The notes beneath the pieces are model-generated. The model made no database searches and was not told where the DNA came from. It saw only the letters and a list, made by a program, of their open reading frames with translations. From contig JACJID010000004.1 of the NCBI GenBank assembly GCA_014138725.1, forward strand, positions 1,178,001 to 1,242,000: a DNA stretch of 64,000 bases. Reading direction: 5' to 3'. Of the stretch, positions 48,546 through 63,147 are shown piece after piece; position 1 is the stretch's first letter, and every line of letters starts with the position of its first letter. This DNA is from Kutzneria viridogrisea (GTDB lineage: Bacteria > Actinomycetota > Actinomycetes > Mycobacteriales > Pseudonocardiaceae). A program made the position numbers and the translations under genes.

Positions 48546-49787
48546 TCAGCGCTTCGAGCGGGCCGTGCTCACCAGGGTGATCAGCGCGATGACGGCCATG
48601 ACCGCGGCGAACAGGTAGAACGTGGCGGACAGCCCGATCTGGGTGGACACCACACCGGCACCGATCACCGGCAGGGAGATGGCCAGGTAGGCGATGACGA
48701 AGTACGTGGCCAGCACCTGACCGCGCTTGTCGGCGGGCGCCGCCTGGGTGACCAGCCGGGTGCCACCCATGAACGCCAGGCCGAAGCCGACACCGGTCAC
48801 GGCGTCACCGAGCAGGAACAGCACGGCACTGGTGAACAGCACCGAGCAGGCGACGAGGGCCATGCCGGTGATCAGCGCGACGCAGCCGAGCACGGAGGCC
48901 GTGCGGGCGGGGAGCTTGGTGCAGGCGAGCTGGGACAGCCCGCCGACGCCCTGCACGGTGAGGATGACCAACCCGGCGACCAGGTGGTTGTTGATGTGCA
49001 ACAACTCCTTGGCCAGGTTGCCGCCCAGTCCGAGGTACAGCCCGCCGACCGACCAGGCGGCCAGCACGCCGAGGCAGCCGAGCACGAACTGCCCGCGCAT
49101 CGAGGCGGGGATGTGGATGCGCTGGGGCCGCAGCAGGGTGCCGACCCGGATCGGCGCACGCACCGGCACCGTCTCGGGCACCTTGGCGGCGATCACCGCG
49201 AGCAGCACCAGCCCGATGGCCATGAGCACCAGGTACGGGGTCTGCAACGGGAACGGCGCCCACTGGGCCAGCGCGCCGGCGAGCACCGCCCCGCAGGCGA
49301 TGCCCATGGAGGTGGAGGTGCTGTTGACCAGTGCGGCGATCCGGGCGTCCCGCCTGGGGTGCAGTTCGGTGAGCGCGGCACCGGCGGCACCGGTGAACAC
49401 GCCGGTGGCCAGGCCCTGCACCAGCCGCGCCACGCACAGCCAGGCGGTGCTGTCGGCGAACAGGAACACCACGAGGCTGCCGAGCAGGGCGAGCACGCTG
49501 CCCAGCAGCACGGGGCGGCGGCCGATCCGGTCGGACAGCCCGCCCGCGAACAGCAGGGTGATCACCACACCGCCCGCGTAGAGCGCGTAGATCACGGTGA
49601 GCATGGCGGCGGAGAAGTGCCAGCGCGCCTGGTAGTCCACGTAGAGCGGGGAGGGCGTGCCGCTGGCGGCCAGCGCGAGCGCGGTTGCGGCGGTCACCAC
49701 CCAGAAGGCGAAGGGGGAACGGGGCTGCCCGGCCACGGGCGCGGCGGACTCGGGCGCGGTCAGTGTCGCGGGCGCTTGCGGGGCCAT
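48546..49787 (-). CDS. MFS exporter, DHA1-like, divergent from LysR regulator
   Basis: 413 residues with 12 predicted membrane helices. Motif A is FAGGLSDRIGRRPVLLGSVL; helix 5 has FTGAAGAALTELHPRRDARI. ATG 49787 is chosen because AAGGA lies seven bases upstream; ATG 49793 would touch that site. It diverges from the LysR gene with 137 bp between, which hold the 27-bp site also found before the 63-kb operon. This suggests it exports or imports a compound of that pathway. Confidence 0.88.
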   Translation of the reverse strand: MAPQAPATLTAPESAAPVAGQPRSPFAFWVVTAATALALAASGTPSPLYVDYQARWHFSAAMLTVIYALYAGGVVITLLFAGGLSDRIGRRPVLLGSVLALLGSLVVFLFADSTAWLCVARLVQGLATGVFTGAAGAALTELHPRRDARIAALVNSTSTSMGIACGAVLAGALAQWAPFPLQTPYLVLMAIGLVLLAVIAAKVPETVPVRAPIRVGTLLRPQRIHIPASMRGQFVLGCLGVLAAWSVGGLYLGLGGNLAKELLHINNHLVAGLVILTVQGVGGLSQLACTKLPARTASVLGCVALITGMALVACSVLFTSAVLFLLGDAVTGVGFGLAFMGGTRLVTQAAPADKRGQVLATYFVIAYLAISLPVIGAGVVSTQIGLSATFYLFAAVMAVIALITLVSTARSKR

Positions 49788-49863
49788 GGGCATTCCTTCA
49801 AGTGGTCGCCGATTCATCGTCGAGGCTAGGTCGCAAATGGGGACGTGTCGAAGTCCTCAGCTG

Positions 49864-49891
49864 CTATGACAGCCATAGGTGCTAAGCTATG
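49864..49891. promoter_or_regulatory. LysR-type operator between MFS and LysR genes
   Basis: Three half-sites run CTATG-N5-CATAG-N8-CTATG. The first pair is TATGACAGCCATA, a T-N11-A box with a perfect dyad, as LysR-type regulators use; the third half-site suits the activation subsite. It starts 77 bp before the MFS ATG and ends 34 bp before the LysR ATG. The 27 bases 49864-49890 match 63121-63147 at 21 positions, in the same orientation relative to the leftward gene. Confidence 0.75.
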
Positions 49892-49924
49892 TGCGCTGTT
49901 CGGCGCGCTGATCTGGGGGAATTA

Positions 49925-50803
49925 ATGGAGGACCTGGACGGTCTGGAAATACGGCACCTGAGATATTTCCTCACGGTGGCCAGGTCCGGCAAGATCTCGG
50001 CGGCCTCGCAGGAGCTGAACATCGCCCAGCCCAGCCTGAGCCAGCTCATCCAGCGACTGGAGAAACGGCTGGGTATCACCCTGTTCGCGCGCAACGCCAG
50101 GGGCGTGGAGCTGACCACGGGCGGGGAGGTGTTCCGGCGCGGGGTGGAGCGGATACTGGAGGAGTTGGAGTCGGTGCTCGCCGAGGCCGGTTCGGCCGCG
50201 CGGGTGGTGCGGGCCGGTGTGTGCGCGGGCGTTGTCCCGGCATTGTTGACCGATATCGAGAATGCGGTGACCGGGCCGCGGGAATCAATAGTATTCCGCT
50301 CGGAGAGTTCCAGCAGGCAGGTGGAACTGCTGCGCTCCGGTGAACTGGACTTCGGAATCGTCCGGCTGCCGGTCGAGGAGGAGGACGTGGAGGTCGCCAC
50401 GGTCAGCGAGCAGGAGCTGGGTGTGGTGACGCACACCGAACACCCGCTGGCCGCACGCGCCGAGCTGAGCTGGGCCGACCTGGCGGGCCAGCGGCTGCTG
50501 TGGTTCGACCAGCGCCGCGCCCCCGGTTACGCCAAGGGCCTGCTCGCCGAACTGGCCGACCGCGGCTGGCAGCCCCGGCTGCACACCGTGGACAGCGACC
50601 GGCACGCGCTGTTCACGCATACCCTGCGCTCGGTGCCCGGTCTGGTCGCGCTGCGCCCGGCGACCAGCGTCGGCGCCGATCCGCACCTGGTCTGGCACCG
50701 CATCGCCGACGGGGACGCGCCCCGTGAGCGGTTCGGCCTCGCGGCGCTGCGCGGCGGGGCGCACGCCGCGGCTGTGAGACGGATCGCGGCGAAACCCCGT
50801 TGA
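49925..50803 (+). CDS. LysR-family transcriptional regulator
   Basis: 292 residues from ATG 49925 after TGGGGGAA. Helix-turn-helix near residues 20-45 (LRYFLTVARSGKISAASQEL, then AQPSLSQLIQRLEKRLG). The effector domain starts near residue 90. Divergent from the MFS gene, with a canonical T-N11-A operator in between. A second copy of that operator lies before the aldolase operon at 63 kb, so this protein is the natural candidate regulator of both. The co-inducer is unknown, perhaps a 2-oxo or hydroxy acid. Confidence 0.92.
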   Translation: MEDLDGLEIRHLRYFLTVARSGKISAASQELNIAQPSLSQLIQRLEKRLGITLFARNARGVELTTGGEVFRRGVERILEELESVLAEAGSAARVVRAGVCAGVVPALLTDIENAVTGPRESIVFRSESSSRQVELLRSGELDFGIVRLPVEEEDVEVATVSEQELGVVTHTEHPLAARAELSWADLAGQRLLWFDQRRAPGYAKGLLAELADRGWQPRLHTVDSDRHALFTHTLRSVPGLVALRPATSVGADPHLVWHRIADGDAPRERFGLAALRGGAHAAAVRRIAAKPR

Positions 50804-50919
50804 TCCCGGGCCCGGTCCGCCTACACTGAGCCCGGTTCTCCGAATGGGCGTCCCCCCTGCGTCCAGCTCGAACCCGTGTTGCACACGCGTTGACGAGCGA
50901 CCATGCCCAGGGGGGACAG

Positions 50920-53900
50920 ATGGAATTCCGGGTTCTCGGCCCGGTTGAGGCTCGCGTGAACGGCGCACTGGTGCCGTTGGGCGGACCGAAACCACGCACG
51001 TTAGTCGCACTGCTCGCCTGCTCACTCGGCCGTGCGGTGCCGGTCGAGCGGGTCATCGAGGCGCTGTGGGGGCTCGACGCCCCCGAACGCGCCAGGGCCT
51101 CGCTGCACACCTATGTCTCGGCCCTGCGCCGCAGCCTGTCGGCGGCCGCGGGCGAGGAGGTGCTCCTGCGCACCCCCGGCGGGTACCGGCTGGCCGCCGC
51201 GAGCACGCAGGTCGACCTCGGCGTGTTCGGGTCCCGTGCCGCCGAGGGACGCCGGGCGATCCAGGAGGGCCGGTTCGAGCAGGCGGCACACCTGCTGGAC
51301 GAGGCCCTGGCCCAGTGCCGGGGCACCGTGTTGAGCGGCACCGAGGGCGACTGGGCGGAGGCCGAGCGGGACCGGCTCACCGAGGAGCGCCTCGGCGTGC
51401 TGGAGGACCGGTTCGAGGTGGCGATCACCCTGGGCCGGGGCCCCGCACTGGCGGGCGAGCTGTCCGCGCTGGTCAAGGAGTACCCGCTGCGGGAACGGTT
51501 GCGCGGGCACCTGATGACGGCGCTGTGCCTGGCCGGCAGACAGGCGGACGCGTTGACCTCCTTCCAGGAGGGCAGACAGGTGCTGGCCCGGGAACTCGGG
51601 GTGGACCCCGGGCCAGCACTGCGGGCCATCCACGAGAAGGTGCTGCGCGGCCAGATCGCCGCTACCCCGCCCTCGGCGCCCGCACCCCCCGCTCCCCCGA
51701 AACTCGTTGCCCCGCAACAGCTCCCGCCCGACATCGCCGACTTCACCGGCCGCACCGAGGAGGTCGGCCTGGTGCGCGAGCGCCTGGACGCGGCCGGGGG
51801 CGGTGCGGCCCTGCGGGTGTGCGCGATCTCCGGCAAGCCCGGCTCGGGCAAGAGCACGTTGGCCGTGCACGTGGCGCACGGGCTGCGCGAGCGGTTCGCG
51901 GCCGGGCAGCTCTACGCGAACCTGCGCGGGGTGCACCAGGCCCCCACCGACCCGTCCGAGGTGCTCGTCCGGTTCCTGCGCTCGCTCGGGGTCGCCGACA
52001 CCGCGATGCCCGCCGACCTGGATTCGCGGGTGGAGCTGTACCGGACGCTGCTCGCCGACCGGCGGGTGCTGGTGGTGCTGGACGACGCCACCGACGAGCG
52101 GCAGGTCCGCCCGCTGCTGCCCGGCGGGGCGCCCTGCGCGGTGCTGATCACCAGCCGGACCCGGCTCACCGCGCTGGAGGGGGCCGACCAGGTGGACCTG
52201 CACGTGCTGCCGGAGGAGGAGGCGGTGGGCCTGTTGCGGCGGGTGGTCGGCGCGGACCGGGCCGCTCGCGAGCCGGACCGGGCGAGCGAACTCGTGCGGC
52301 TGTGCGGGTACCTGCCGCTGGCGGTACGCATCGCGGGGGCCCGGCTGGCGGCTCGGCCCACCTGGCCGCTGGCCAACCTGGTGCGGCGGCTGCGGGTGCA
52401 GCAACGGGTGCTGCACGAGTTGTCGATCGGCGACCTGGCGGTGCGGGGCAGTCTCGCGCTGAGCTACGCCGGGCTGGCCGAGCAGGAGCGCACGGCCCTG
52501 CGCAGGCTGGGTTGGCTGGGCGGACTGGACTTCGGGGCCTGGCTGGTGGGCGCCCTGCTGGACGTGCCGCTGGCGCTGGCCGAGGACGTGGTGGAGGCGC
52601 TGGCCGACGCGCAGTTGGTGGACACCGTCGGGGTGGACGGGTCCGGTGCGGCGCGCTACCGGTTGCACGACCTGACCCGGGCCTTCGCCCATGAGCGGGC
52701 GGAGCAGGAGGAGCAGCGGCCCGTGGCGGTGGCCGCGGTGGACCGGGTGGCGCGGTGCTGGCTCACGCTTGTCGAACGGGCCGCCGCACGGGTGCACGAA
52801 CGAGGCAAGCCGGTGGGCGTGGCGGAGGAGCACTGCGAGTACCTGCCGGAGCGAACGGTCTCGGTGCTGCTGCGCGATCCGGCGGCCTGGCTGGAGTCCG
52901 AACAGGCGAGTCTGGTGGACATGGTCGAGCGCGCCTGCCAACTGGACCTGACAGCGGTGGCGGTGCGGCTCACCGTCGCACTGTCGGCCTCGACTTTCTC
53001 CGTGCACAACCAGTTCAACCTCTGGTGGCACACGCACCGCGTGGCGCTGGAGTGCGCGCGCCGGGCGGGTGACCGGTCCGGTGAGGCGCAGCTGCTGAGC
53101 GGGCTGGGCTGGTTGCGGTCCGAACAGGACTGGCACGAGGAGGCCGTGGACTACTACGAGCAGGCACTCGCGCTGCACGTGGAGATCGGCGACCTGGACG
53201 GGCAGGTGCGCAGCCGGTTGGCGCTGAGCATGGTCCAGCGCGAGTGCGGGGCACTCGCCGCAGCACTGTCCACTGTAGACGCCGCAGTGCCGCTGATCGT
53301 GCCGGGCACCGAGCTGGCCGCCAGGGCGGGCCACAGCAGGGGCATGGTGTTGACCGAACTCGGCGACCTGGACGGGGCTGTTGCGGCCTGCACCGAGGCG
53401 GCGCGCATCTACCGCGAGCTCGGCGAAACCCAGGCCGAGGCACTGGTCCTGCGGTCGCTGAGCATCGCGCACCGCGCGGCGGGCCGCTACGGGGAAGCGG
53501 CCGAGAACGTGGAACGGGCGCTGGAGTTGTTGCGCGCCTTCGGCGATCCGACCATGTTGCCCTACGCCATCCAGGCGCTGGCCAAGGTGCGGATCCGGCA
53601 GGGGTTGGGCGCCACGGTCCGCGAGCAGCTGCGCGAGGCGCTGGCCCTGCGCAACGAGATGCAGGACGGGTTCGGTCAGGCGCTGGTGCTGCGCACGCTC
53701 GGTGAGCTGGAACTGGCCGAGGGCAGGCTCACCGAGTCACTGTCCTATCTGGAGCGTTCCCTGGAGTGGTGGGGCGCCCTGGACATCCCGCTGTGGCACG
53801 GTCGCAGTCTCCGTGATCTGGCAACGGTTCTGGAGGCTCTGGGCAGGCACGCGGAGGCGGACTCGGCGTGGGCGGCGGCGCTGGCGGTCTTCCAGCGGTT

Positions 53901-53955
53901 CGGCAGCAGGGAGGCGGGCGAGCCGAGGCGGCGGCCCGCGCTCACCAGGATCTGA
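50920..53955 (+). CDS. AfsR/SARP-family regulator (BTAD, NB-ARC, TPR)
   Basis: 1,011 residues from ATG 50920, with AGGGGGGAC in front. N-terminal OmpR-like winged helix (FRVLGPVEARVNGALVPLGG, ASLHTYVSALRRSL), bacterial transcriptional activation domain to about residue 245, then a STAND/NB-ARC ATPase with P-loop GKPGSGKSTL near 304-313 and LVVLDDATDE as Walker B. The last 300 residues are TPR repeats. Large SARPs of this type activate secondary-metabolite genes in actinomycetes; no obvious target cluster adjoins, although the PKS lies 16 kb away. Confidence 0.93.
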   Translation: MEFRVLGPVEARVNGALVPLGGPKPRTLVALLACSLGRAVPVERVIEALWGLDAPERARASLHTYVSALRRSLSAAAGEEVLLRTPGGYRLAAASTQVDLGVFGSRAAEGRRAIQEGRFEQAAHLLDEALAQCRGTVLSGTEGDWAEAERDRLTEERLGVLEDRFEVAITLGRGPALAGELSALVKEYPLRERLRGHLMTALCLAGRQADALTSFQEGRQVLARELGVDPGPALRAIHEKVLRGQIAATPPSAPAPPAPPKLVAPQQLPPDIADFTGRTEEVGLVRERLDAAGGGAALRVCAISGKPGSGKSTLAVHVAHGLRERFAAGQLYANLRGVHQAPTDPSEVLVRFLRSLGVADTAMPADLDSRVELYRTLLADRRVLVVLDDATDERQVRPLLPGGAPCAVLITSRTRLTALEGADQVDLHVLPEEEAVGLLRRVVGADRAAREPDRASELVRLCGYLPLAVRIAGARLAARPTWPLANLVRRLRVQQRVLHELSIGDLAVRGSLALSYAGLAEQERTALRRLGWLGGLDFGAWLVGALLDVPLALAEDVVEALADAQLVDTVGVDGSGAARYRLHDLTRAFAHERAEQEEQRPVAVAAVDRVARCWLTLVERAAARVHERGKPVGVAEEHCEYLPERTVSVLLRDPAAWLESEQASLVDMVERACQLDLTAVAVRLTVALSASTFSVHNQFNLWWHTHRVALECARRAGDRSGEAQLLSGLGWLRSEQDWHEEAVDYYEQALALHVEIGDLDGQVRSRLALSMVQRECGALAAALSTVDAAVPLIVPGTELAARAGHSRGMVLTELGDLDGAVAACTEAARIYRELGETQAEALVLRSLSIAHRAAGRYGEAAENVERALELLRAFGDPTMLPYAIQALAKVRIRQGLGATVREQLREALALRNEMQDGFGQALVLRTLGELELAEGRLTESLSYLERSLEWWGALDIPLWHGRSLRDLATVLEALGRHAEADSAWAAALAVFQRFGSREAGEPRRRPALTRI

Positions 53956-54000: not shown

Positions 54001-55620
54001 TCAGCTGCTCGCCAGGCTGCCGTTCAGCGAGGTCCACGGCGAGTAGCCGTCCGACCCCGGGGACTGCCAGCTGGCGGTGACGTCGCCGAGGGCGCCGCGG
54101 GCGAACAACGCCCGAGCACCGGAAGGACCGGCCACCGTGATGTCACTGGTCACCTTGCCGCCCAGCGAGGTCCACGGCGAGTAGCCATCGGAGCCCGGGG
54201 ACTGCCAGCTCGCCACCACATCACCGTTGGCACCACGGGCATACAGCACCCGCGCACCCGCGTCACCCAGGACGACGATGTCGCCCGTCACCTTGCCGCC
54301 CAACGAGGTCCACGGCGAGTACCCGTCAGACCCCGGGGACTGCCAGCTCGCCACCACATCACCATTCGCGCCACGGGCGAACAGGGTCCGGGCACCGGCA
54401 GGGCCGGTCACCGTGATGTTGCTCGTTACGCTGCCACCCAAGGAAACCCACGGCGAGTAGCCATCCGAACCAGGAGACTGCCAACTCGCCACGACGTCAC
54501 CGTTCACGCCACGGGCGTAGAGCACCCGCGAACCCACGTCACCAACCACCGTGACATCGCTGGACACGTTGCCACCCAACGAGGTCCACGGCGAGTACCC
54601 GTCCGAACCAGGAGACTGCCAACTCGCCACGACGTCACCGTTCACGCCACGGGCGTAGAGCACCCGCGAACCGGCAGCACCGGTCACCGTGATGTTGCCC
54701 GTCACGTTGCCGCCCAACGTGGCCCACGGCGAGTAGCCGTCAGACCCCGGAGACTGCCAGCTCGCCACCACATCACCAGCCGAGCCGCGTGCGTAGAGCA
54801 CCCGCGAACCCACGTCGCCAACAACGGTGATGTCGCTGGACACGTTGCCGCCCAACGAGGTCCAAGGCGAGTAGTCACCGCCGCTGTTGATCTGCCAGCT
54901 CGCGATCACGTCACCCCGGGAGCCGCGGGCGAACATCGCGCGGGAGCCGCCGTCACCGGTCACCGTCACGCGCACCGGCGCGGTCGTGCCCTGGGCCAGG
55001 ACCGCGTTGACGATGGTCTGCGCGTCCTCGGCGTTGGGCTGGTAGCGGTCCGGGTAGGCGGAGCGCTCCACGCCTTGGGCCACCTCGCCGACGGGCTTGG
55101 TCTGCCAGGAGTTGTTGGGGTAGGTACGGGACATCGTGGTGAGGAACCAGTTGGTCTCGTACCAGAGGTCGGTGCGCTGGGCGAAGCTGCCCTTGTCCGC
55201 GAGCATCTGGAACAGGCCCACGCTCGTCGCGTCGCCCCCGTTGAGGTTGAGGATGCTGGTCTCCACGATGGTCGCGGCGACCTCGATCACGGCGGCGTGG
55301 CTGTTGTACCCGGCGTTGAGCGTACTGTTCACGATCGCTCTGGCGCAGGAGGCCTGTTCGGCGGACAGCCCGCCGGACATCTTGGCGTGCAGCCTGCCAC
55401 GCAACGAGTTGGCCAGCGCGCCGTCCTGGGCCGTCGGGCCACCGGCGTGGCACGCGGTGTAGCCGATGTCAGCCAGGGCACGCTGGTGCTGGGCGTAGGC
55501 GCGGTCCTGGCTGGCTGCGCTGGGTGCGGCGGCGGCGACCCCGTTCAGGCCCACCACCCCGGCCAGGGCCAGACCGGCTGCCACGGCACCGCGGAACTTG
55601 GCATTTCCTTGCGTAGACAC
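54001..55620 (-). CDS. Secreted lysozyme-like protein with seven-bladed PLL-like propeller
   Basis: 539 residues. Signal peptide (to about residue 33), then a lysozyme/SLT-like helical domain at about 80-215 with a candidate catalytic Glu in VAATIVETSILNLNGGD and the SVGLFQM motif typical of actinobacterial transglycosylase-like domains. From about residue 217 to the end are exactly seven 46-residue repeats built on VLYARG, GDVVASWQSPGSDGYSPW and TSLGG, as in the PLL lectin seven-bladed beta-propeller. Probably cleaves peptidoglycan while the propeller binds glycan. GTG start after AGAGGGGAC. Confidence 0.83.
   Translation of the reverse strand: MSTQGNAKFRGAVAAGLALAGVVGLNGVAAAAPSAASQDRAYAQHQRALADIGYTACHAGGPTAQDGALANSLRGRLHAKMSGGLSAEQASCARAIVNSTLNAGYNSHAAVIEVAATIVETSILNLNGGDATSVGLFQMLADKGSFAQRTDLWYETNWFLTTMSRTYPNNSWQTKPVGEVAQGVERSAYPDRYQPNAEDAQTIVNAVLAQGTTAPVRVTVTGDGGSRAMFARGSRGDVIASWQINSGGDYSPWTSLGGNVSSDITVVGDVGSRVLYARGSAGDVVASWQSPGSDGYSPWATLGGNVTGNITVTGAAGSRVLYARGVNGDVVASWQSPGSDGYSPWTSLGGNVSSDVTVVGDVGSRVLYARGVNGDVVASWQSPGSDGYSPWVSLGGSVTSNITVTGPAGARTLFARGANGDVVASWQSPGSDGYSPWTSLGGKVTGDIVVLGDAGARVLYARGANGDVVASWQSPGSDGYSPWTSLGGKVTSDITVAGPSGARALFARGALGDVTASWQSPGSDGYSPWTSLNGSLASS
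54004..54972 (-). repeat. Seven tandem 138-bp coding repeats
   Basis: Each unit encodes 46 residues; the segment GDVVASWQSPGSDGYSPW is almost invariant in units 2-7, while the first unit has GDVIASWQINSGGDYSPW. Two unit types alternate (ITVVGD versus ITVTGA beginnings). High DNA identity between units and with the neighbouring gene points to gene conversion or unequal exchange. Boundaries are accurate to a few bases. Confidence 0.88.
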
Positions 55621-55664
55621 AGTTGTCCCCTCTGTGGATCCGGAATTACTTGCTGTGGAGCGGA

Positions 55665-57206
55665 TCAGCCCGCGAGGCTGCCGCCGAGACTGGTCCAGGG
55701 CGAGTAGTCACCAGCACCGTTGATCTGCCAACTGGCGGTGACGTCGCCGTTGCCACCGCGCGCGAACAACGCCCGCGAACCAGCCGCGCCCGTCACCGTG
55801 ACATCGCCGGTCACCCTGCCGCCCAACGACACCCAAGCCGAGTAGCCGTCCGAACCAGGCGACTGCCAGCTCGCCACCACATCACCGTTCACGCCACGGG
55901 CGAACAGCGTGCGAGCACCGGCAGCACCGGTCACCGTGATGTTGCCCGTTACGTTGCCACCCAGCGACACCCACGGCGAGTACCCGTCCGAGCCCGGAGA
56001 CTGCCAGCTCGCCACTACATCACCGTTCACGCCACGGGCGTACAGCACCCGTGAACCCGCATCTCCAACTACCGTGATGTCACTGGACACGTTGCCACCC
56101 AAGGACGTCCACGGCGAATAGCCATCCGACCCCGGAGACTGCCAACTCGCCACCACGTCACCGCCCGAGCCGCGGGCGAACAGCGCCCGCGAACCAGCAG
56201 CACCGGTCACCGCGATGTTGCCCGTCACACTGCCACCCAACGACACCCACGGCGAATAGCCGTCAGACCCCGGGGACTGCCAACTCGCCACCACATCACC
56301 AGCCGAGCCGCGTGCGTAGAGCACCCGTGAACCCGCATCTCCAACTACCGTGATGTCACTGGACACGTTGCCACCCAAGGACGTCCACGGCGAATAGCCG
56401 TCAGACCCCGGGGACTGCCAACTCGCCACCACGTCACCGCCCGAGCCGCGGGCGAACAGCGCGCGGGCACCGGCAGCACCGGTCACCGTGATGTTGCCCG
56501 TCACGCTGCCGCCCAACGTGGCCCACGGCGAGTAGCCGTCCGAACCCGGAGACTGCCAGCTCGCGATGACGTCCCCGGCGGAGCCACGGGCGTACATCAC
56601 CCGCGAGCCGCTGTCGCCGACCACCGTCACGTGCGCACCGGAGTCGTCGATGATTCGGTTGTACCGCTTGGGAGCGAAGGAGTTCGCGTAGTTGGCCGGC
56701 CAGGTGCGCTGTTCGGCGTTGTGCCCGTAGTCGTACTCCTCCATCACCACCGGCTGGGTGTGCGCGGAGTCGCTCCAGCGCAGGAAGATCGCCACGTGCT
56801 GCTGGGTGGAGTCGTGCCGGAACAACACGTCCCCGGCCTTGAGGTCGGACCGGGCGACGTCGTGCATGACCTCACCGAGGTTGCCGGTCCAACGGGAACC
56901 GCTCAGGTGCCAGGCCATCGACACGTAACCCGAGCAGTCCTGCCGGTAGGTGCCGTACTGGTTGGTGTACGAGCTGGTCTGGCTGTAGGGGACGTGCTGG
57001 TCGATCCAGGACTGCGCGCGGGTGATCACCTCGCTCCGGCTGATCGGGCCGTCCGCGGTGGAGTTGGCCACGGCGGGTCTGGCCACTGCCGCGGCGGCGG
57101 GAGGTGCGGTGGCCAGGCTCATGCCGCCAAGGGACACGGCGGCGACGCCGGCGGTGGCCACCGCGGCGATGAGACGGGCGAGCGGGCGCGGAGCTGTGGT
57201 CTGCAC
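55665..57206 (-). CDS. Secreted NlpC/P60-type hydrolase with seven-bladed PLL-like propeller
   Basis: 513 residues from GTG 57206, preceded by GGAAGG at seven bases; the longer frame is rejected because it adds 32 residues before the signal peptide. Signal peptide to about residue 40, then an NlpC/P60-type cysteine peptidase domain with catalytic Cys in YRQDCSGYVSMAWHL and His in STQQHVAIFLRW. Seven 46-residue repeats follow, as in the next gene. Predicted to cut cell-wall peptide crosslinks. It lies 44 bp upstream of its propeller paralogue; the pair combines a glycan cutter and a peptide cutter. Confidence 0.85.
   Translation of the reverse strand: MQTTAPRPLARLIAAVATAGVAAVSLGGMSLATAPPAAAAVARPAVANSTADGPISRSEVITRAQSWIDQHVPYSQTSSYTNQYGTYRQDCSGYVSMAWHLSGSRWTGNLGEVMHDVARSDLKAGDVLFRHDSTQQHVAIFLRWSDSAHTQPVVMEEYDYGHNAEQRTWPANYANSFAPKRYNRIIDDSGAHVTVVGDSGSRVMYARGSAGDVIASWQSPGSDGYSPWATLGGSVTGNITVTGAAGARALFARGSGGDVVASWQSPGSDGYSPWTSLGGNVSSDITVVGDAGSRVLYARGSAGDVVASWQSPGSDGYSPWVSLGGSVTGNIAVTGAAGSRALFARGSGGDVVASWQSPGSDGYSPWTSLGGNVSSDITVVGDAGSRVLYARGVNGDVVASWQSPGSDGYSPWVSLGGNVTGNITVTGAAGARTLFARGVNGDVVASWQSPGSDGYSAWVSLGGRVTGDVTVTGAAGSRALFARGGNGDVTASWQINGAGDYSPWTSLGGSLAG
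55668..56635 (-). repeat. Seven tandem 138-bp coding repeats, paralogous to the next gene
   Basis: Same 46-residue unit as at 54.0-55.0 kb, again seven copies with alternating ITVVGD and ITVTGA types. The last copy reads GDVTASWQINGAGDYSPW, matching the first unit of the neighbouring gene more than its own siblings, which suggests exchange between the two arrays. Confidence 0.88.
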
Positions 57207-57310
57207 GGTGCTGCCTTCCGGGAGAGGAGCTCTGTTGACCGGGCAAGGCTGTGTCCGCGCTATCAAGGAAAACTCAAAACCGAGGTCAGCGGCCGTTCCC
57301 ACGAGACGCC

Positions 57311-57346
57311 GAGGCCCGCCCCGCGTGATGGCGCGGGGCGGGCCTC
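57311..57346. terminator. Strong hairpin ending the 57-63 kb operon
   Basis: GAGGCCCGCCCCGCG (57311-57325) and CGCGGGGCGGGCCTC (57332-57346) pair perfectly around TGATGG, 14 bp past the stop of the tautomerase gene. It closes the six-gene leftward operon and insulates the NlpC-type gene beyond it. Confidence 0.87.
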
Positions 57347-57360
57347 GGGGCGTGCTGGTG

Positions 57361-57564
57361 CTACTTGGCGGCCTTGGCGGCGCGCGCGGTCAGGGTCTCC
57401 CCCGCGATGCCCCAGTTGTCCTTGGCGGTCTCCTCGATGGTCACCCAGACCGACTCGGGCTTGCCGCCGGTGGCGCGCACGTACGCCTCGGTCAGCTCAC
57501 GCACGATGGCGGCCTTCTGCTCGGTGGTCTGCCCGGTCGGCTGGTTGACGTGGATCAGCGGCAC
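57361..57564 (-). CDS. 4-oxalocrotonate tautomerase-family protein
   Basis: 67 residues, the normal size. After Met removal the protein begins with the catalytic Pro (MPLIHVNQPTGQTTEQKAAI), followed by the 4-OT beta-alpha-beta pattern. 4-OT enzymes interconvert enol and keto forms of 2-oxo acids, as in catechol meta-cleavage. GTG start after GGGGAG. Last gene of the operon, 43 bp behind DUF6282. Confidence 0.9.
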   Translation of the reverse strand: MPLIHVNQPTGQTTEQKAAIVRELTEAYVRATGGKPESVWVTIEETAKDNWGIAGETLTARAAKAAK

Positions 57565-57607
57565 AACTACTCCCCTGTGATCGATTCCTGGTTTGTCTCA
57601 GAGTTGG

Positions 57608-58462
57608 TCAAAGAGCCAGCAAATGGCTCGGGTCGCCCGCGGTGACCTTGGCGACCTGGTCCGCGGTCAGCCCGGCCTCGGCGAACCAGCGGCCGGACAG
57701 TTCCAGCCACTCGGCCACGTCGGGCTGGTCGGGCTGGCCGAGGTCGGAGCTGTGCACCACGCGCGGGTGGGCGTGCAGCACCTGGCTGAACCTCGGTCCG
57801 TCGTGGTGGCCGAGCAACCTGGTCAGCGCGGTCAGCTCCACGTACACCTGGGGCACCCCGGACAGCTGGGCCAGGTCCCGGTCGGTCAGCCCGCACATCG
57901 GGTGCGTGGGGTGGGTCAGCAGCACGCGGTCCAGCCCCAGCGCCACGACTTCGTCCACGACTCGAAGGATGTCCTCGCGGACCGCGTGCCCGGTGGCGAG
58001 GACCACCGGCAGGTCACGGGCCGCACGCAGCACCTCGACCACCTCGGGCAGCAGCCTGCCCTCGGCGCTGATCGGGGTGCCGCGCAGCCCGGGTACGTCC
58101 AGCAGCGGGTGGAACGGCACCCGGTTCAGCTTCGAGGCGTGCGCCCCGCCGACCAGTGTCGGCAGGTACACCACGAGCCGGGCGGGTCCGTCGTCCCCGT
58201 GCTGGTAGACCGCGCGTTCCACGGTGCGCGTCTCCAGCCCGCCGCCCACGTGGTTCAACGTCACCGAGCCGGACACGGGCAGGCCCTCCTGGCGGGCCTC
58301 CCACGCGGCCGAGGCGGTGGACCCGAGGTGGCTCTTCACCACCACCCAGCCGCCCAGCTCGGCGTAGCGGCGCCCGGTGGCCAGCACCGAGCGCCGCCGC
58401 CGGTACAGGTCCGCGCCCGCGTGGTGGTGCAGGTCCACGAACCGGCCAAGTGGCTCAGGCAC
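57608..58462 (-). CDS. DUF6282 metal-dependent-hydrolase-like protein
   Basis: 284 residues, GTG start overlapping the RraA stop by 8 bp. The N-terminus FVDLHHHAGADLY is the HxH metal motif of a TIM-barrel amidohydrolase; further candidate ligands lie in VVVKSHLGST, VLATGHAVREDI and VLLTHPTHPMCGLTD, with VVHSSDLGQPDQP near the end supplying the Asp. This matches the DUF6282 group. The reaction is unknown; related folds hydrolyse lactones and cyclic amides, which would fit 2-oxo-acid chemistry in this operon. Confidence 0.78.
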   Translation of the reverse strand: MPEPLGRFVDLHHHAGADLYRRRRSVLATGRRYAELGGWVVVKSHLGSTASAAWEARQEGLPVSGSVTLNHVGGGLETRTVERAVYQHGDDGPARLVVYLPTLVGGAHASKLNRVPFHPLLDVPGLRGTPISAEGRLLPEVVEVLRAARDLPVVLATGHAVREDILRVVDEVVALGLDRVLLTHPTHPMCGLTDRDLAQLSGVPQVYVELTALTRLLGHHDGPRFSQVLHAHPRVVHSSDLGQPDQPDVAEWLELSGRWFAEAGLTADQVAKVTAGDPSHLLAL

Positions 58463-59126
58463 TGGCAGCGGCCTTGTCCTGCCACGGGGTGGCGTACCCG
58501 AACTCGGCGCGCGCCTCGTCCAGCCTGCGCCCCTGGGCCACGGCCTGGGCGATGCGCCGCTCGGTGGCCTCCACCCGCTCCGCGCGCTCGGCCACCTCCT
58601 CGGCGTGCTCCGCGGGCACGACGATCACGCCGCTGTCGTCGGCGAGCACGATGTCACCGGGCCGCACACGGGTGCCGTGCACGTCCACGGTGGCGCCGAC
58701 CTCGCTCAGCTCCACCCGGTTCTTGCCGCTGACCATCGTGATCCCGGTGCTGAACAGCGGGTAGCCGGCCGCGCGGATCTCGGCCAGGTCGCGGGCCGAC
58801 CCGTGCAGCACGGTGCCACGCACCCCGCGAGCCCTGGCCACCGCGGTCAACAGCGAGCCCCAGTTGGTGCAACTGGTGTTGCCCCCGTTGTCCACCACGA
58901 CCACCGAGCCCTCGGGCACGTCGTCGAGGTAGTTGGCGGCGTTGCGGAACTTCGGGCCGTCCCCGCGCACCGGGCCGTAGGTGACGGTGTAGGCGGTGCC
59001 GCAGGCCCTGCTGCCGGGCACCCGCGCCGCGATGCCGGGCAGCACCCCGGTGATGCCCAGGCTGTCCAAGGCATCCGAGACCGCTGCCGTGTCCAAAGCG
59101 GACAGTCGCGCGACGAGATCACTCAT
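58455..59126 (-). CDS. RraA-family (HMG/CHA aldolase-like) protein
   Basis: 223 residues from ATG 59126, overlapping the stop of the upstream gene (ATGA). Family signatures: VVVDNGGNTSCTNWGSLLTA, GVRGTVLHGSARDLAEIRAA, the catalytic Arg-Asp pair in SARD, and PGDIVLADDSGVIVVP. Most metabolic members are class II pyruvate aldolases or oxaloacetate decarboxylases with a divalent metal; RraA proper instead inhibits RNase E. The surrounding enzymes favour an aldolase or decarboxylase role. Confidence 0.88.
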   Translation of the reverse strand: MSDLVARLSALDTAAVSDALDSLGITGVLPGIAARVPGSRACGTAYTVTYGPVRGDGPKFRNAANYLDDVPEGSVVVVDNGGNTSCTNWGSLLTAVARARGVRGTVLHGSARDLAEIRAAGYPLFSTGITMVSGKNRVELSEVGATVDVHGTRVRPGDIVLADDSGVIVVPAEHAEEVAERAERVEATERRIAQAVAQGRRLDEARAEFGYATPWQDKAAASA

Positions 59127-61354
59127 CGCCGCACCTCGCTGGCGCTCGGCGCAGCGCTTCGCGCTGACCCTGTGCTCAATGATTCGCTCGCAAGCTCGCT
59201 CATTGGCTTCTCCCCCTCGTTGAGTGCGCGTGCGGCGCTCCAGGCGAAGAAGGCGGCGGCGTTGTCGGCCACCTCCGGCCCGCGCTTGGGCACCGAGAGC
59301 TGGTAGGTGCTGGTACGTCCGCCGCTGGTGACCTCGGCGGTCAGCGCGAGCGTGCCGGAGAACTCCGTAGGTCCGCCCGACCACTCGGCGCCGCCAGTGA
59401 TGGACAGCTCCGGGCCGGTCCCGGTGTCGCCGACCCCGCTGAGGAACTCCTTCTCCGCGAAGTCCAAGTCCACAGTGGACAGCGTGAACGGTCCACCGGC
59501 GGCCAGTTCCGCGAAGGCGTCACGGCCGTCCCTGCTGACCGTGTGCGGGCCGAGCACCCGCTCCAGCCCCTCGGGCAGCGGCGCGGACCCGGCGGGCCTG
59601 CTCACCGTGACGTCCACGTACGGATAGCTCCACAGGTAGGAAACCCTTGCCTGGTCGCCGATCGGGGCCAGTACGGCGTCCACGTCGGCCGCGATGTCCC
59701 CCTCGATCACACCGAGCAGCCGCCACCGGCTGGACTCCGACCGTGTCGCGCCGGGCAGCGCGGCCACCGCGTTCTCCGCCATCGGCAGGCACTCCTTGGG
59801 CGGCCCGGGAAGCATCAGCACGGTAGTGCCGGACACCTCCACGCGGGCACCCCAGGCCGTGCCGTTGGCGTTGGGCAGTAGTTCGGCGCCCACCGGGAAC
59901 TGGGCCTGGCGCCGGTTGTCCTCGTGCACGGGCAGGTTGAACGACTCCAGCCGCGCGCACACGGCCTGCCAGGCCTGCTCGCTGAACTCCAGCGGCAGCC
60001 CGCAGGCCGCCGCGACCCCGTCACGGGTCACGTCGTCGGAGGTGGGACCCAGGCCACCGAGCACCGCGACGACCTCGTCCACGCCGATGCGCGCGCGGAC
60101 CGCGTCCTGGATGTCGGCCAGCGTGTCGCCCACGGTGGCCCGGCTGCGCACCTGGTACCCGGCCTGGTCGAGCAGCTTGCTGACCGCCGTGCTGTTGGTG
60201 TCGGCGATCGCCCCGCTGAGCAGTTCGTCGCCAACGGCGATCACCGAGGCCTGGCGGACCTCCACCGTGCCCGACAACGCCTTCTCCACCGCGGCGGCGG
60301 CCACCGGCGTGGTCGCGGTGCCGCCGAGGTCGTAGGTCACCGCGCGGCGGGCACGGGCCACGGCACGCACCGCGGAACGGATCTGCTCGGCGGGCGCGGG
60401 CAGGTCCAGGTGCCGCAGCAACTGGCTCGCGGTCAGGAACAGGGCCATCGGATTGGCCTTCTGCCGACCGGCCATGCTCGGCGCGCTGCCGTGCACCGGT
60501 TCGAAGTAGCTGCCGTGCTCACCGATGTTGCCGCTGGGCGCGAGCCCGAGCCCGCCCATGACCCCGGCGCCGAGGTCGGACAGGATGTCGCCGAACATGT
60601 TCTCGGCCACGATCACGCCGAACCGCTCCGGCCTGCGCACCATCCACAGCGCCAGCGCGTCCACGTTGAGGATCTCGGTCTCGATCTCCGGGTACTCCTG
60701 GGAGATCAGCTCCAGCCTGCCACGCAGGTGGTTGCTGCTCTCCCGCAGCACGTTGGGCTTGTCGGCCAGGCTCAGCAGCCGGTACCCGTTCTGCCTGGCG
60801 TGCTCGAAACCGAAGCGCAGCAAGCGGTCGATGCCGAACTGGGTCTGCAGCCGCAGCGTGGCGCTGGTCAGCTCCGGACCGGTGGCGGCGGCGTTGGGGT
60901 GGTCCTTGACCACGTCCCACAGTGCCGGGCCCAGTCCGTGGAAGTCCAGGCCCGCGTAGAGGCCCTCGGTGTTCTCCCGGATCACCGAGAAGGCGAACCG
61001 GTCCGCGTGCACATCGGCCACGGGGCGCACGTTGGCGTACAGCGAGAGCTTCTGCCGCAGCTGCACCACCGGCGAGACGTAGCGCAGGCCGGTACCGCGC
61101 AGGTGCTCGGCCAGCTCCGCCTCGGCCTCGCGCAGCGGCTTGCTCGTGATCGCGCCGAGCAGGCAGGTGTCCGTCTCGGCGAGAAGGTCCCAAGTGGACT
61201 GTGGGACGGCGTTACCCGTTTCACACCAACTGGTCCAGCCGACCTCGCCGAACCGGAACTCCAGCGGCAGGCCCATCCGGTCCAGCACCGGCAGCACCGC
61301 CGAGACCACCTCGGGTCCGATGCCGTCCCCTGGCAGCACCGCAACGCTCTTCAT
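59123..61354 (-). CDS. Fusion of isocitrate/isopropylmalonate-type dehydrogenase with CinA-like domain
   Basis: 743 residues from ATG 61354 after AAAGGAGA. Residues 1-345 are a beta-decarboxylating dehydrogenase: VAVLPGDGIGPEVV, FSVIRENTEGLYAGLDF, catalytic Lys in DKPNVLR, DILSDLGAGVMGGLGLAPSG and cofactor segment EPVHGSAP. RENTEG is closer to isocitrate or tartrate dehydrogenases than to LeuB. From about 350, a CinA/MoCF-type domain (VIAVGDELLSGAIADTNSTA, VLGGLGPTSDDVTRDGVAA, VLMLPGPPKE) runs to about 530, then about 190 unassigned residues. Overlaps both neighbours by four bases. I do not recall this fusion from characterised proteins. Confidence 0.9.
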   Translation of the reverse strand: MKSVAVLPGDGIGPEVVSAVLPVLDRMGLPLEFRFGEVGWTSWCETGNAVPQSTWDLLAETDTCLLGAITSKPLREAEAELAEHLRGTGLRYVSPVVQLRQKLSLYANVRPVADVHADRFAFSVIRENTEGLYAGLDFHGLGPALWDVVKDHPNAAATGPELTSATLRLQTQFGIDRLLRFGFEHARQNGYRLLSLADKPNVLRESSNHLRGRLELISQEYPEIETEILNVDALALWMVRRPERFGVIVAENMFGDILSDLGAGVMGGLGLAPSGNIGEHGSYFEPVHGSAPSMAGRQKANPMALFLTASQLLRHLDLPAPAEQIRSAVRAVARARRAVTYDLGGTATTPVAAAAVEKALSGTVEVRQASVIAVGDELLSGAIADTNSTAVSKLLDQAGYQVRSRATVGDTLADIQDAVRARIGVDEVVAVLGGLGPTSDDVTRDGVAAACGLPLEFSEQAWQAVCARLESFNLPVHEDNRRQAQFPVGAELLPNANGTAWGARVEVSGTTVLMLPGPPKECLPMAENAVAALPGATRSESSRWRLLGVIEGDIAADVDAVLAPIGDQARVSYLWSYPYVDVTVSRPAGSAPLPEGLERVLGPHTVSRDGRDAFAELAAGGPFTLSTVDLDFAEKEFLSGVGDTGTGPELSITGGAEWSGGPTEFSGTLALTAEVTSGGRTSTYQLSVPKRGPEVADNAAAFFAWSAARALNEGEKPMSELASESLSTGSARSAAPSASEVRR
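59127..59203 (-). repeat. 77-bp MIRU-like intercistronic element
   Basis: Two ATGA sites, at 59203 and 59126, lie exactly 77 bp apart. The stretch between encodes MSELASESLSTGSARSAAPS and six more residues, and resembles mycobacterial interspersed repetitive units, which insert at stop/start overlaps inside operons and are often 77 bp. GAGGGGGAG precedes the first ATG, so the 26 codons may also be translated separately. Here they are in frame with the fusion protein as a C-terminal tail. Confidence 0.6.
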
Positions 61355-62058
61355 GGGGTCAGGTTCTCCTTTGCGAACCGGGTGAGGTGATCGGTGACGA
61401 ACTCGGGGCGGTCGCTGTGCGGGCGCATACCCGCGCCGGGCACCTCGACCACCTCGTGGTGGGCCGCCGCAGCGAGGTGCGCGGTGGTCACCAACCGGGA
61501 GCGTTCGCCGACCAGGTGCATCAGCGGCCCCTCGTAGGACAGCACCTGCTCGGTGAGGTCGACCTCCAGCAGCAGCCGCATGCCACCGGCGATGCGGCGG
61601 CACGCCTGCTCATCGGCCGGAACCGGTTGGTGCACAGGCGGTTCGACGCCCTCGGCCGTGACCAGCTCGCCCAGCACCGCGAGTGATCGCGACAGGTCGC
61701 CCTCGGCGGCCAGGTCGGCCACAGTGGACAGTCGCTCCGCGAGCACGCGGTCGGCCCGGGTGGGCGCGGACACCAGCACGGTGGCCGGTGGCCTCAGGTC
61801 GGGCAGCAGCGCCTGGGCCACCGCCCCGCCCAGCGCGTTGCCCACCAGTAGGTCCACTTCGGACATACGGGGCAGCCAGCTCCGTGCGAGCTGGCTCACC
61901 TCGGTCATGGAATCCTCAAGCAGGGCAAGGGTGTCCACCACGGTGACGCGGCAGCCGAACGCCTCCAGCGCGCCGGTCACCGTGGCGAAGAAGCGTCCCT
62001 CGTCCCACTGCGGCAGCACCGGCGCGAACACCAGTGCATGCGGACGTGAGTCGGTCAT
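61351..62058 (-). CDS. Alpha/beta-hydrolase-fold protein lacking the nucleophile
   Basis: 235 residues from ATG 62058. It follows the alpha/beta hydrolase layout (HALVFAPVLPQWDEGRFF; the elbow DLLVGNALGGAVAQALLP; a strand MHLVGERSRLV; a final His candidate in GMRPHSDRP). The nucleophile elbow reads G-N-A-L-G-G where active enzymes have G-x-S-x-G, so the Ser appears replaced by Ala. It may be a pseudo-enzyme, a carrier or a lyase-type member. Coupled by ATGA overlaps to both neighbours, so it is integral to the pathway. Confidence 0.78.
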   Translation of the reverse strand: MTDSRPHALVFAPVLPQWDEGRFFATVTGALEAFGCRVTVVDTLALLEDSMTEVSQLARSWLPRMSEVDLLVGNALGGAVAQALLPDLRPPATVLVSAPTRADRVLAERLSTVADLAAEGDLSRSLAVLGELVTAEGVEPPVHQPVPADEQACRRIAGGMRLLLEVDLTEQVLSYEGPLMHLVGERSRLVTTAHLAAAAHHEVVEVPGAGMRPHSDRPEFVTDHLTRFAKENLTP

Positions 62059-62987
62059 CCCGCTGCGGCACCGGCCAGCGCCCGCGCGGCGTGCACGGAC
62101 TGCCGGTGGTCGGAGTGCGCGATGCTGCCGCGCTCCTCCACCGACAGGTCGAAGTGCCCCAGCACCAGATCGGGCAGCGGCAGCGAGGGCGCCGACTCGG
62201 GCACGCTGCGGCCGAGCAGGTCCGCCAGGTGCAGCATGGTGCCCAGGTCGTAGCGGTCGCCGCCGATCCGGTCCAGGTAGGCGATCCACTGCTCGGCCAC
62301 CAGGTTGCCGGGGCCCTTGCCCATGCCCAGCACCGAGGAGTCCATCCACGTGGCGCCCGCGTCCACCGCGGCCATCGCGTTGGACATGGCCAGGCCCAGG
62401 TTGTTGTGCGCGTGCAGGCCGACCTCGCCGGGCACCACCGACTTCACCAGCGTGGCGAGCCGGGCGGTGTGCGCGGGCAGCAGGCTGCCGTTCGAGTCGG
62501 CCAGGTACACCACGTCGGTGCCCGCGTCGGCCGCGGCGGCGGCCACCTCGACCACCTTGCGCGCGGGCAGTTGCGAGACGCGGGTCAGGTTCACGCACAC
62601 CGTGAAGCCGACCTCCTTGGCCTGCCGCACGGTGTCCAGCGCGGGGCCCGGGTCACCGGCGGGCACGCAGACCCGCACCAGCCGGGCGCCCGCGCGGTGC
62701 ATCGCGGGCAGGTCCCCGGCGTCGATGTTGCGCGGGTGCAGGATCAGGCCCACGTGCTCCGGGCCGATCTCCTCGGCGATCGCGGCGATGTAGGAGTCAT
62801 CGCCCCGACCGGTCAGCCCCAGGTCCGCAACCGGCTTGAACGAACCCTTGCGATAGGCGATCTCCACCCAGTCGAACCCGGCCGCCACGCTCAACCGCGC
62901 GTGGGTGCGGGCGTAATCCAGGTCGAACTCGAATCTGTTGCGGTAGCCACCGTCACGTAACGTGACATCAATGTTAACCAAAGACAC
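62055..62987 (-). CDS. DRE-TIM aldolase (HMGL/DmpG-like), first gene of the operon
   Basis: 310 residues. The metallo-aldolase signature VTLRDGGYRN at residues 8-17 gives the metal-binding Asp and catalytic Arg; the His pair is in LHAHNNLGLAMSN, and YLADSNGS is conserved. Relatives include 4-hydroxy-2-oxovalerate aldolase, HMG-CoA lyase and the LeuA/homocitrate synthases; length fits the aldolases. Start is GTG 62987 or TTG 62981 (better spacing to GGGGGAG). Codon 10 is TTA, rare in such genomes and a bldA target in streptomycetes. Confidence 0.88.
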   Translation of the reverse strand: MSLVNIDVTLRDGGYRNRFEFDLDYARTHARLSVAAGFDWVEIAYRKGSFKPVADLGLTGRGDDSYIAAIAEEIGPEHVGLILHPRNIDAGDLPAMHRAGARLVRVCVPAGDPGPALDTVRQAKEVGFTVCVNLTRVSQLPARKVVEVAAAAADAGTDVVYLADSNGSLLPAHTARLATLVKSVVPGEVGLHAHNNLGLAMSNAMAAVDAGATWMDSSVLGMGKGPGNLVAEQWIAYLDRIGGDRYDLGTMLHLADLLGRSVPESAPSLPLPDLVLGHFDLSVEERGSIAHSDHRQSVHAARALAGAAAG

Positions 62988-63120
62988 AGCTCCCCCAGCC
63001 TATTAGTCACCGAAACTCGCGAAACGGACACCGGCATCCGACGGGCTCCCCAGCCCCGACCGTTGCGTTCGCGGTCAGAAAATTATGTGAACCGGATTCC
63101 ACCGTCAAGCGGACAAGCTC

Positions 63121-63147
63121 CTATAGCAGCCATAGCTGCCGAACTAT
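63121..63147. promoter_or_regulatory. Second copy of the LysR-type operator, before the aldolase operon
   Basis: Half-sites CTAT, CATAG and CTAT are spaced as at 49.86 kb; the central CAGCCATAG is identical, and 21 of 27 bases agree. The left edge is 134 bp before the aldolase GTG, and the orientation to the leftward gene is the same as for the MFS gene. It lies in a locally AT-rich stretch typical of a promoter. Confidence 0.72.

Follow-up and report, generated by a model that had tools for sequence, protein, structure and literature searches.

Six genes on the minus strand of a 64,000-nucleotide stretch of the Kutzneria viridogrisea genome (contig JACJID010000004.1, positions 1,178,001 to 1,242,000; hereafter the window) appear to form an operon at 57361-62987, with a LysR regulator and a major facilitator superfamily (MFS) transporter encoded nearby. 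In our reading, LysR controls a pathway here by which a small acid, of the citrate family or a 2-oxo acid, is built and exported; we estimate the probability of this reading at roughly 55%. An earlier note on the same DNA (the original prediction) had described the genes as an unrecognised 2-oxo-acid pathway. The sequence comparisons give good support for joint action of the genes, and the biosynthetic direction is likely; the steps, the substrate and the product, like the 2-oxo-acid label itself, are what we infer from the families to which the proteins belong.

Layout of the operon and conservation of a five-gene core

Reading the open reading frames (ORFs) of the window gave the following genes and signals, all on the minus strand:

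62055..62987, minus: DRE-TIM (HMGL-like) aldolase; 310 amino acids, GTG start; assigned by Pfam
61351..62058, minus: alpha/beta-hydrolase-fold protein; 235 amino acids; without nucleophile or catalytic His; fold from a predicted model
59123..61354, minus: gene of the dehydrogenase (DH)-CinA fusion; assigned by Pfam
60271..61354, minus: beta-decarboxylating (isocitrate/isopropylmalate-type) dehydrogenase domain of DH-CinA; border approximate
59123..60270, minus: CinA N-terminal (MoCF_biosynth) domain and C-terminal region of DH-CinA; border approximate
58455..59126, minus: RraA-type aldolase/decarboxylase; 223 amino acids; subfamily of Protein Data Bank (PDB) entry 3k4i
57608..58462, minus: DUF6282 protein, amidohydrolase-like TIM barrel; 284 amino acids; HxH and further metal-type residues invariant
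57361..57564, minus: 4-OT-type tautomerase; 67 amino acids, GTG start; lineage-specific accessory gene
57311..57346, minus: terminator-like hairpin 3' of the tautomerase gene; 15-bp stem
63082..63108, minus: promoter-like TTGACG (63103-63108) and CATAAT (63082-63087); 15-nt spacer; found by eye

The genes overlap or nearly abut. Three junctions (DRE/alpha-beta, alpha-beta/DH-CinA and DH-CinA/RraA) are ATGA overlaps, the RraA and DUF6282 genes overlap by 8 nt, and a 43-nt gap precedes the tautomerase gene, as expected of the tightly coupled operon that had been proposed. The original prediction had also given the operon its own terminator and called it a complete transcription unit. The hairpin agrees with this: the folded stretch has -51.6 kcal/mol and a z of -4.93, and it has no T tract and was missed by a scan for T-tract terminators. 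Together with the layout, it supports reading the six genes as a single predicted transcription unit. A TTGACG ... ATAAT stretch comparable to that of the window was seen by eye at the equivalent place in loci L016 and L103; a stricter promoter scan gave no promoter-like site at 63082-63108.

To follow the operon in other genomes, the DH-CinA protein was used to scan 84,980 species genomes. This gave at least 594 stretches and at least 580 confirmed relatives. The best 80 relatives were taken, picked by dehydrogenase similarity, and the figures over these 80 loci describe that sample and are no census. The five core genes (DRE, alpha/beta, DH, RraA and DUF6282) were all matched in 54 of the 80 loci by tblastn, a count of matches that includes some broken frames (e.g. 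DRE in L038, DRE and DH in L044); among loci with enough flank the figure was 50 of 67. The order was DRE-AB-DH-RraA-DUF6282 in 41 of the five-gene loci and DRE-DH-RraA-(other genes)-AB-DUF6282 in 13, where AB is the alpha/beta gene. Ten loci had the DH gene alone and six AB-DH only (eleven of these 16 in Bartonella, five in other genomes), and ten further loci were without one or two core genes, some through a contig end. The original prediction had staked itself beforehand on gene order being conserved beyond this genome, and it came through on this point. Of its six-gene set, five genes stand as the conserved unit far beyond Kutzneria; the sixth, the tautomerase, was present in 14 of the 80 loci (searched with 57361-57567, one codon longer than the gene) and is a lineage-specific extra.

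The five-gene core spans Actinomycetota, Pseudomonadota and one Bacteroidota metagenome-assembled genome (MAG; Pedobacter). Among the carriers of all five genes are Streptomyces (including S. griseofuscus, L021, with a complete genome), Kitasatospora, Lentzea, Prauserella, Actinopolyspora and Rathayibacter, as well as Pseudomonas, Burkholderia, Serratia, Citrobacter, Lonsdalea, Pseudoalteromonas, Endozoicomonas, Legionella, a single Bartonella whose frames are broken, Pseudosulfitobacter and the Pedobacter MAG. In a concatenated tree of 54 rows the window stands beside Lentzea. The five proteins diverged in step: the Spearman correlation of their pairwise distances was 0.59-0.87 over 51 rows, window included, and for each protein pair none of 200 permutations was as high. 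In addition, the enzymes are tied together by fusions. Of 78 dehydrogenase proteins (77 of the 80 and L097; L044, L085 and L091, all Bartonella with a broken DH frame, were dropped), 33 are fused to full CinA, 2 to truncated CinA and 14 to RraA, and 29 stand alone; in L058, RraA and DUF6282 form one open frame.

Within single lineages the system is patchy. Of 390 genomes from the family to which the window belongs, 7 have the alpha/beta protein (two weak matches left out). DUF6282 proteins of the pathway type were found in 3 of 7 genomes of the window's genus. Split from others at about 1e-100, they were also found in 34 of 140 Legionellaceae (no genome fell above the split), in 10 of 249 genomes from the P. 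corrugata genus (8 with weaker matches not counted) and in 1 of 394 genomes of the class sample, namely the window itself (18 weaker matches left out); the weaker matches, 1.5e-29 or worse, were read as other DUF6282 proteins, and one Legionellaceae genome has a further match at 4e-82. Alpha/beta matches in 67 of 396 genomes of the phylum sample (E<=0.001) were all weak (4.5e-12 or worse) except the window's own; they were taken as ordinary hydrolases and not counted. No copy was found in E. coli genomes by blastn with Citrobacter DNA, nor in phages in a search with the RraA protein alone. Pseudomonas kilonensis has the CinA version and stands apart from other Pseudomonas in the tree, which argues for transfer between lineages.

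In eleven Bartonella loci (L040, L042, L043, L049-L052, L085, L087, L088 and L091) the DH-CinA gene outlasts its operon partners: DRE, RraA and DUF6282 gave no match in the stretch examined, the alpha/beta gene was matched in six and MFS in nine (three as fragments only), and the DH-CinA frame itself is broken in L085 and L091. DH-CinA has possibly retained a second role there.

Regulator, presumed exporter and a common palindrome

The original prediction had placed a LysR site shared with an exporter at this operon. Indeed, a LysR-type palindrome, CTAT-N7-ATAG, was found both upstream of the operon and between a LysR and an MFS gene:

63121..63135, no strand: LysR-type palindrome CTAT-N7-ATAG, 12 bases upstream of the operon TTGACG box
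49864..49878, no strand: second LysR-type palindrome CTAT-N7-ATAG, between the exporter and LysR genes
49889..50803, plus: LysR regulator of the system; ortholog beside the core in four relatives
48546..49817, minus: MFS transporter of the system, presumably an exporter; ortholog beside the core in four relatives

The first copy lies 133 bases before the DRE start codon. The two copies in the window compare with a mean of 0.00 in 100 shuffles, and nowhere else in the 10.25-Mb genome does the motif occur, so that each copy sits at one of the two promoters in question; a reversed control pattern gave 4 matches per strand in that genome. The LysR and MFS genes are divergently oriented and fall outside 57361-62987, on the 3' side of the operon at distances of 6.6 and 7.5 kb. 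Their orthologs directly adjoin the core in Lentzea (L016) and in the relatives L103, L104 and L105, with 66-72% (LysR) and 72-81% (MFS) identity to the proteins of the window. L016, L103 and L105 have an exact copy of the palindrome at their operon promoter, which the sequence of L104 does not include; at the exporter, L016 and L103 show it with a single mismatch, and it was not seen in L104 or L105. Among 30 loci above 60% G+C, L016 alone had it at the operon and the other 29 had none with up to one mismatch, so the palindrome seems particular to close relatives of the window. We read it as a putative LysR operator of a two-promoter regulon, and exporter, regulator and operon together look like a closed regulon. 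L104 gave no tautomerase match.

The proteins of the operon and the exchangeable modules

The family assignments made in the original prediction were recovered: five genes were assigned by Pfam, and the fold of the alpha/beta protein by its model and Foldseek. The DRE-TIM protein matches HMGL-like (5.9e-30), and its nearest solved relatives are 4-hydroxy-2-oxovalerate aldolase and 3dxi, a 'putative aldolase'. All 58 rows share the metal ligands D12, H192 and H194, as well as R11 and S165; R-D and H-x-H are metal and pyruvate-site residues of 4-hydroxy-2-oxovalerate aldolase. Against the model of that aldolase (TIGR03217) it scored 136 bits, below the cut-off of 286. At the position after RDG that holds the base His in DmpG, 43 of the 58 rows have Tyr (Tyr15 in the window), 13 His and 2 Asn. 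The protein resembles DmpG/BphI, a 4-hydroxy-2-oxovalerate aldolase also used in nikkomycin biosynthesis (NikB), in its fold and, by alignment, in its Arg/Asp/His/His site, but it has 310 amino acids compared with 345, and no acetaldehyde dehydrogenase gene is among the six operon genes. On a divalent metal, it would join (or split) a 2-oxo-acid enolate and a carbonyl compound. A gene of the Aldedh family lies upstream of the core at L033 5710-7065, and aldehyde-dehydrogenase-family genes are also near the core in L025, L028, L030 and L048; they form one homology cluster, of which the L033 member alone was typed.

No Pfam or NCBIfam family was found for the alpha/beta protein. Its model (mean pLDDT 96.9) has the alpha/beta-hydrolase fold according to Foldseek. 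As had been predicted, the nucleophile is absent: the window protein has Ala at the nucleophile elbow, as do 41 of 61 rows (Ser in the other 20), and the position of the catalytic His is Met in the window and Met, Thr or Ala in all 61 rows, followed by an invariant Arg. The protein therefore does not have the triad of serine alpha/beta hydrolases. D42, R155, S187 and R212 are invariant in the 61 rows, and with its two invariant arginines the protein may act on or shepherd a polycarboxylate without hydrolysis.

The dehydrogenase domain is an Iso_dh protein (PF00180; 2.4e-72, 244.6 bits vs a cut-off of 27). R100, R110, R126, Y133, K199, D232, D256 and D260 are kept in 73-76 of 76 rows; Arg, Tyr, Lys and Asp have catalytic roles in beta-decarboxylating dehydrogenases. 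Most of the 76 rows have the signature S-P-[VI]-[IV]-Q-L-R. In the alignment the dehydrogenase has the Ser of isocitrate dehydrogenases without the Asn two places on, both residues having known roles in these enzymes. Among the matches listed (25 of 26), the best NCBIfam model was AksF2 (261 bits vs 540), isocitrate dehydrogenase gave 244 vs 510, and no equivalog cut-off for isocitrate, homoisocitrate, isopropylmalate or tartrate dehydrogenase was reached. A housekeeping leuB or isocitrate dehydrogenase was rejected on this ground and because another dehydrogenase (41% identity) is encoded elsewhere in the genome. The enzyme would oxidise a 2-hydroxy-3-carboxylate (isocitrate-like) unit with NAD, with loss of CO2. 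A DRE-TIM enzyme forming C-C bonds and a beta-decarboxylating dehydrogenase also meet in chain extension of the tricarboxylic acid cycle type, as in the leucine, lysine and methanogen Aks routes and in phosphonate antibiotics made with a DRE-TIM synthase and an isocitrate dehydrogenase-like enzyme. Unlike these routes, the operon has no aconitase-type isomerase among its six genes, and its DRE-TIM protein is nearest to short aldolases.

The CinA domain fused to the dehydrogenase matches MoCF_biosynth (1.7e-29, 102.8 bits vs 26.6), and its GGLGPTSDD motif (G433-D441) and T443 are invariant in 13 rows; a GGLGPTxDD-type motif is expected of the CinA N-terminal domain. With 124.2 bits it did not reach the cut-off for full CinA (TIGR00200, 243.15). 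CinA is absent from many homologous operons. The original prediction had held that each family here handles hydroxy- or oxo-acids; this was an overstatement, as neither the alpha/beta protein nor the CinA domain is known to be linked to such compounds.

The RraA protein (Pfam RraA-like, 5.4e-35) has an R-D pair, catalytic in the RraA fold, that is invariant in 64 rows (R112, D113). It stayed below the equivalog cut-offs for LigK/CHA aldolase (90.9 vs 304.5) and for the RNase E regulator RraA (47.5 vs 136). It matches PDB 3k4i, a solved 'uncharacterized protein', at E 1.3e-61, and because both have M-x-S-x-K-N-R, a motif of the subfamily whose Ser is kept in 63 of 64 rows, 3k4i probably belongs to the RraA group of the pathway. 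A second retro-aldol reaction or a beta-decarboxylation of a 2-oxo acid would be the step of this enzyme.

The DUF6282 protein (Pfam, 9.9e-46) has D10, H12, H14, H45, H159 and D240 invariant in 27 rows. The top Foldseek matches of its model were COG3618 amidohydrolases (E 2.9e-5 and weaker), closely followed by a phosphotriesterase-like lactonase and by 2,6-dihydroxybenzoate decarboxylase; the query TM-score was at most 0.57 among the 50 matches listed. It may open (or close) a lactone, or decarboxylate. The tautomerase (Pfam Tautomerase, 8.3e-17) is barely over the TIGR00013 subfamily cut-off (4-oxalocrotonate tautomerase family; 57.5 vs 56.9) and has Pro directly after the start, (M)PLIHV.

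Further genes around the core vary between lineages. These modules were tabled for the 54 loci in which four or more core genes and sufficient flank were present, a set that differs from the 54 five-gene loci; the accessory profiles derive from these very neighbourhoods and so are no independent evidence on them, and the neighbourhood ORFs came from a simple caller and include false ones. NMO and ABM genes occurred together in 0 of 21 loci with CinA vs 18 of 33 others (Fisher p 1.4e-5). Thirteen proteobacterial NMO+ABM loci have an LLM gene in 13 cases and a flavin reductase gene in 10, and six actinomycete NMO+ABM loci have a TcuA-like FAD enzyme. In Legionella, an ATP-grasp gene of the cyanophycin-synthetase type was present in 12 of 13 tabled loci (none in L061). 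We suggest that such modules, namely the CinA domain in the window, NMO+ABM in other loci together with LLM/flavin reductase or FAD oxidase, and ATP-grasp in Legionella, finish the molecule, which the MFS protein would then export. A constant core with exchangeable modules is expected of a biosynthetic scaffold with differing finishing steps. Bacilysin is a small exported peptide/acid made by a cluster with an MFS exporter, and the likeness to such clusters lies in few small enzymes, tailoring, an MFS transporter and, in one lineage, ATP-grasp; beyond the general MFS and ATP-grasp superfamilies no enzymes of bacilysin are known to recur here. Upstream of its core, a Legionella MAG has four ATP-grasp genes that belong to the cyanophycin-synthetase type seen in other Legionella (L063 1011-8166), and in Pseudosulfitobacter a cytochrome P450 gene lies beyond the core on the opposite strand (L058 8788-10050), nearest to cyclodipeptide-associated and TxtE families and under their cut-offs.

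Direction of the pathway, rival readings and significance

The biosynthetic direction was deduced from the type of transporter and from the pattern of a core plus variable modules, and a citrate-family tricarboxylate is suggested by the substrates of the nearest known relatives: isocitrate and 4-carboxy-4-hydroxy-2-oxoadipate, and tricarballylate for the accessory FAD enzyme. As for the transporter, an MFS-profile match lies within 8.5 kb in 29 of 54 loci. The MFS proteins of L021, L030, L036 and L044 are above the NCBIfam cut-off of the Bcr/CflA subfamily (239.8-273.9 bits vs 200.9), and those of L054, L070 and L075 have efflux families as best matches, under the cut-off.

Several results speak against an exporting biosynthetic pathway. 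In 25 of the 54 loci, including all 13 tabled Legionella loci, no MFS-profile match was found within 8.5 kb; the MFS proteins of L046 and L062 passed no curated cut-off, and the sole match of the window's own, TIGR00880, gave 59.8 bits vs a cut-off of 131. Neither the dehydrogenase nor the aldolase nor the RraA protein reached an equivalog cut-off among the matches listed, and the steps proposed rest on families with differing substrates. The DUF6282 model also weakly matches IMPDH, sialic acid aldolase and other TIM barrels, and L017, L077 and L090 are without the alpha/beta gene, the core being otherwise complete. The separation of CinA from NMO+ABM is partly phylogenetic, since the loci are related, and the TcuA-like FAD enzyme also occurs in four CinA loci (L022, L025, L026 and L028), that is, in both versions.

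The strongest rival is a catabolic operon, in which the DUF6282 protein as lactonase, the dehydrogenase and the two aldolases would take an external hydroxy- or oxo-tricarboxylate or its lactone, once imported, to the level of pyruvate and LysR would sense the substrate; we regard it as unlikely. LysR regulators often control catabolism, and sets of lactonase, tautomerase and RraA-type enzyme are typical of lower ring-cleavage pathways. The protocatechuate 4,5-cleavage/gallate lower pathway, with LigI lactonase, OMA tautomerase and hydratase, and LigK/CHA aldolase of the RraA family, has in common with the operon an RraA-type aldolase, an amidohydrolase-like possible lactonase and a tautomerase; but no ring-cleaving dioxygenase or hydratase is among the six genes, and the beta-decarboxylating dehydrogenase, the DRE-TIM aldolase and the exporter have no place in that pathway. 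Distant DUF6282 proteins were followed in ten stretches of 20 plasmid records with a match, of which one (Legionella adelaidensis) was the true operon and one, from Fusobacterium, had no annotation. The DUF6282 gene of Thermus oshimai has as neighbours a PIG-L protein, a CHA aldolase and genes for ring cleavage, catechol 2,3-dioxygenase among them; that of Alicyclobacillus lies beside a PIG-L protein, and in Agrobacterium and Mameliella an HpcH-type aldolase and genes for TRAP transport are found in its vicinity; in Natrinema, Pseudonocardia, Priestia and Halomicrococcus no such aldolase was annotated nearby. These contexts weakly fit a lactonase or related step beside an aldolase, and those of Thermus, Agrobacterium and Mameliella count for catabolism, as does L090, where a gene for a periplasmic binding protein lies upstream of the core and is read from the opposite strand. 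Against it, the adjacent transporters resemble drug/metabolite exporters where typed (no systematic scan of the neighbourhoods for importers was made), and flavin, ABM, CinA and ATP-grasp modules vary around the constant core.

We hold it quite improbable that the pathway has already been described under another name, e.g. as that of a Pseudomonas or Streptomyces metabolite in a subscription journal. The literature was searched by words, in open-licence papers, which leaves room for such a report; but varied wording gave no description of the five-gene set there, in line with the original prediction, which knew of no pathway with these genes, and the complete Legionella adelaidensis copy is annotated generically. 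Even less probable is metabolite repair or detoxification, by which the set would remove a toxic citrate-like compound and the MFS protein expel the remainder. CinA-type domains are tied to the repair of damaged nucleotides, and exporter and operon have one operator-like palindrome in common; but this would be many C-C bond enzymes for one repair step, CinA is dispensable, and the set is rare and patchy rather than general. Chance neighbourhood without joint function was rejected as hardly credible: nothing was found for it, and the arrangement across phyla, the fusions, the palindrome and the correlated divergence all oppose it.

For a LysR-controlled biosynthetic pathway, the core kept across phyla would, together with the regulator, the operator-like site and the exporter found here, point to a metabolite with a role outside the cell. 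The enzymes belong to known superfamilies, and the whole resembles a small-molecule operon with an exporter. A further proposal, which we make tentatively and with well under even odds, is a new class of secreted small molecules (probably a citrate-family antimetabolite, chelator or signal) whose five-enzyme core has none of the usual natural-product core enzymes, spreads horizontally and takes up interchangeable modules (CinA, flavin oxidase set, ATP-grasp); soil actinomycetes and plant-associated pseudomonads would carry it, along with Bacteroidota and the host-associated genera Legionella and Bartonella. The system sets an assignment problem for DUF6282, for a triad-less alpha/beta fold, for 3k4i and for a CinA domain fused to a dehydrogenase in a metabolic operon, and the one annotated copy examined carries generic family names only. 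The putative two-site regulon would offer a clean on/off switch for finding the product.

Between the LysR/MFS pair and the operon, the window encodes a BTAD/STAND-type regulator at 50890-53955 and, at 54001-57302, two repeat proteins that appear to be secreted. The regulator has BTAD, NB-ARC and TPR domains, and no homolog of it was found in the examined stretches of the four relatives. The two neighbouring proteins (54001-55620 and 55665-57302) have in common a long C-terminal array of near-identical repeats (GDVVASWQSPGSDGYSPWTSLGG...); one has an NlpC/P60 domain, the other no Pfam family. An interspersed repeat of about 72 bp (59130-59201) lies within the 3' end of the DH-CinA gene, nearly abutting the RraA start, and encodes the last ~25 codons of DH-CinA. 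It has at least 46 matches in the genome, 79-100% identical, with 40 of 186 first-look candidates scored, and peptides resembling the repeat-encoded end of DH-CinA are also encoded at seven other places in the genome.

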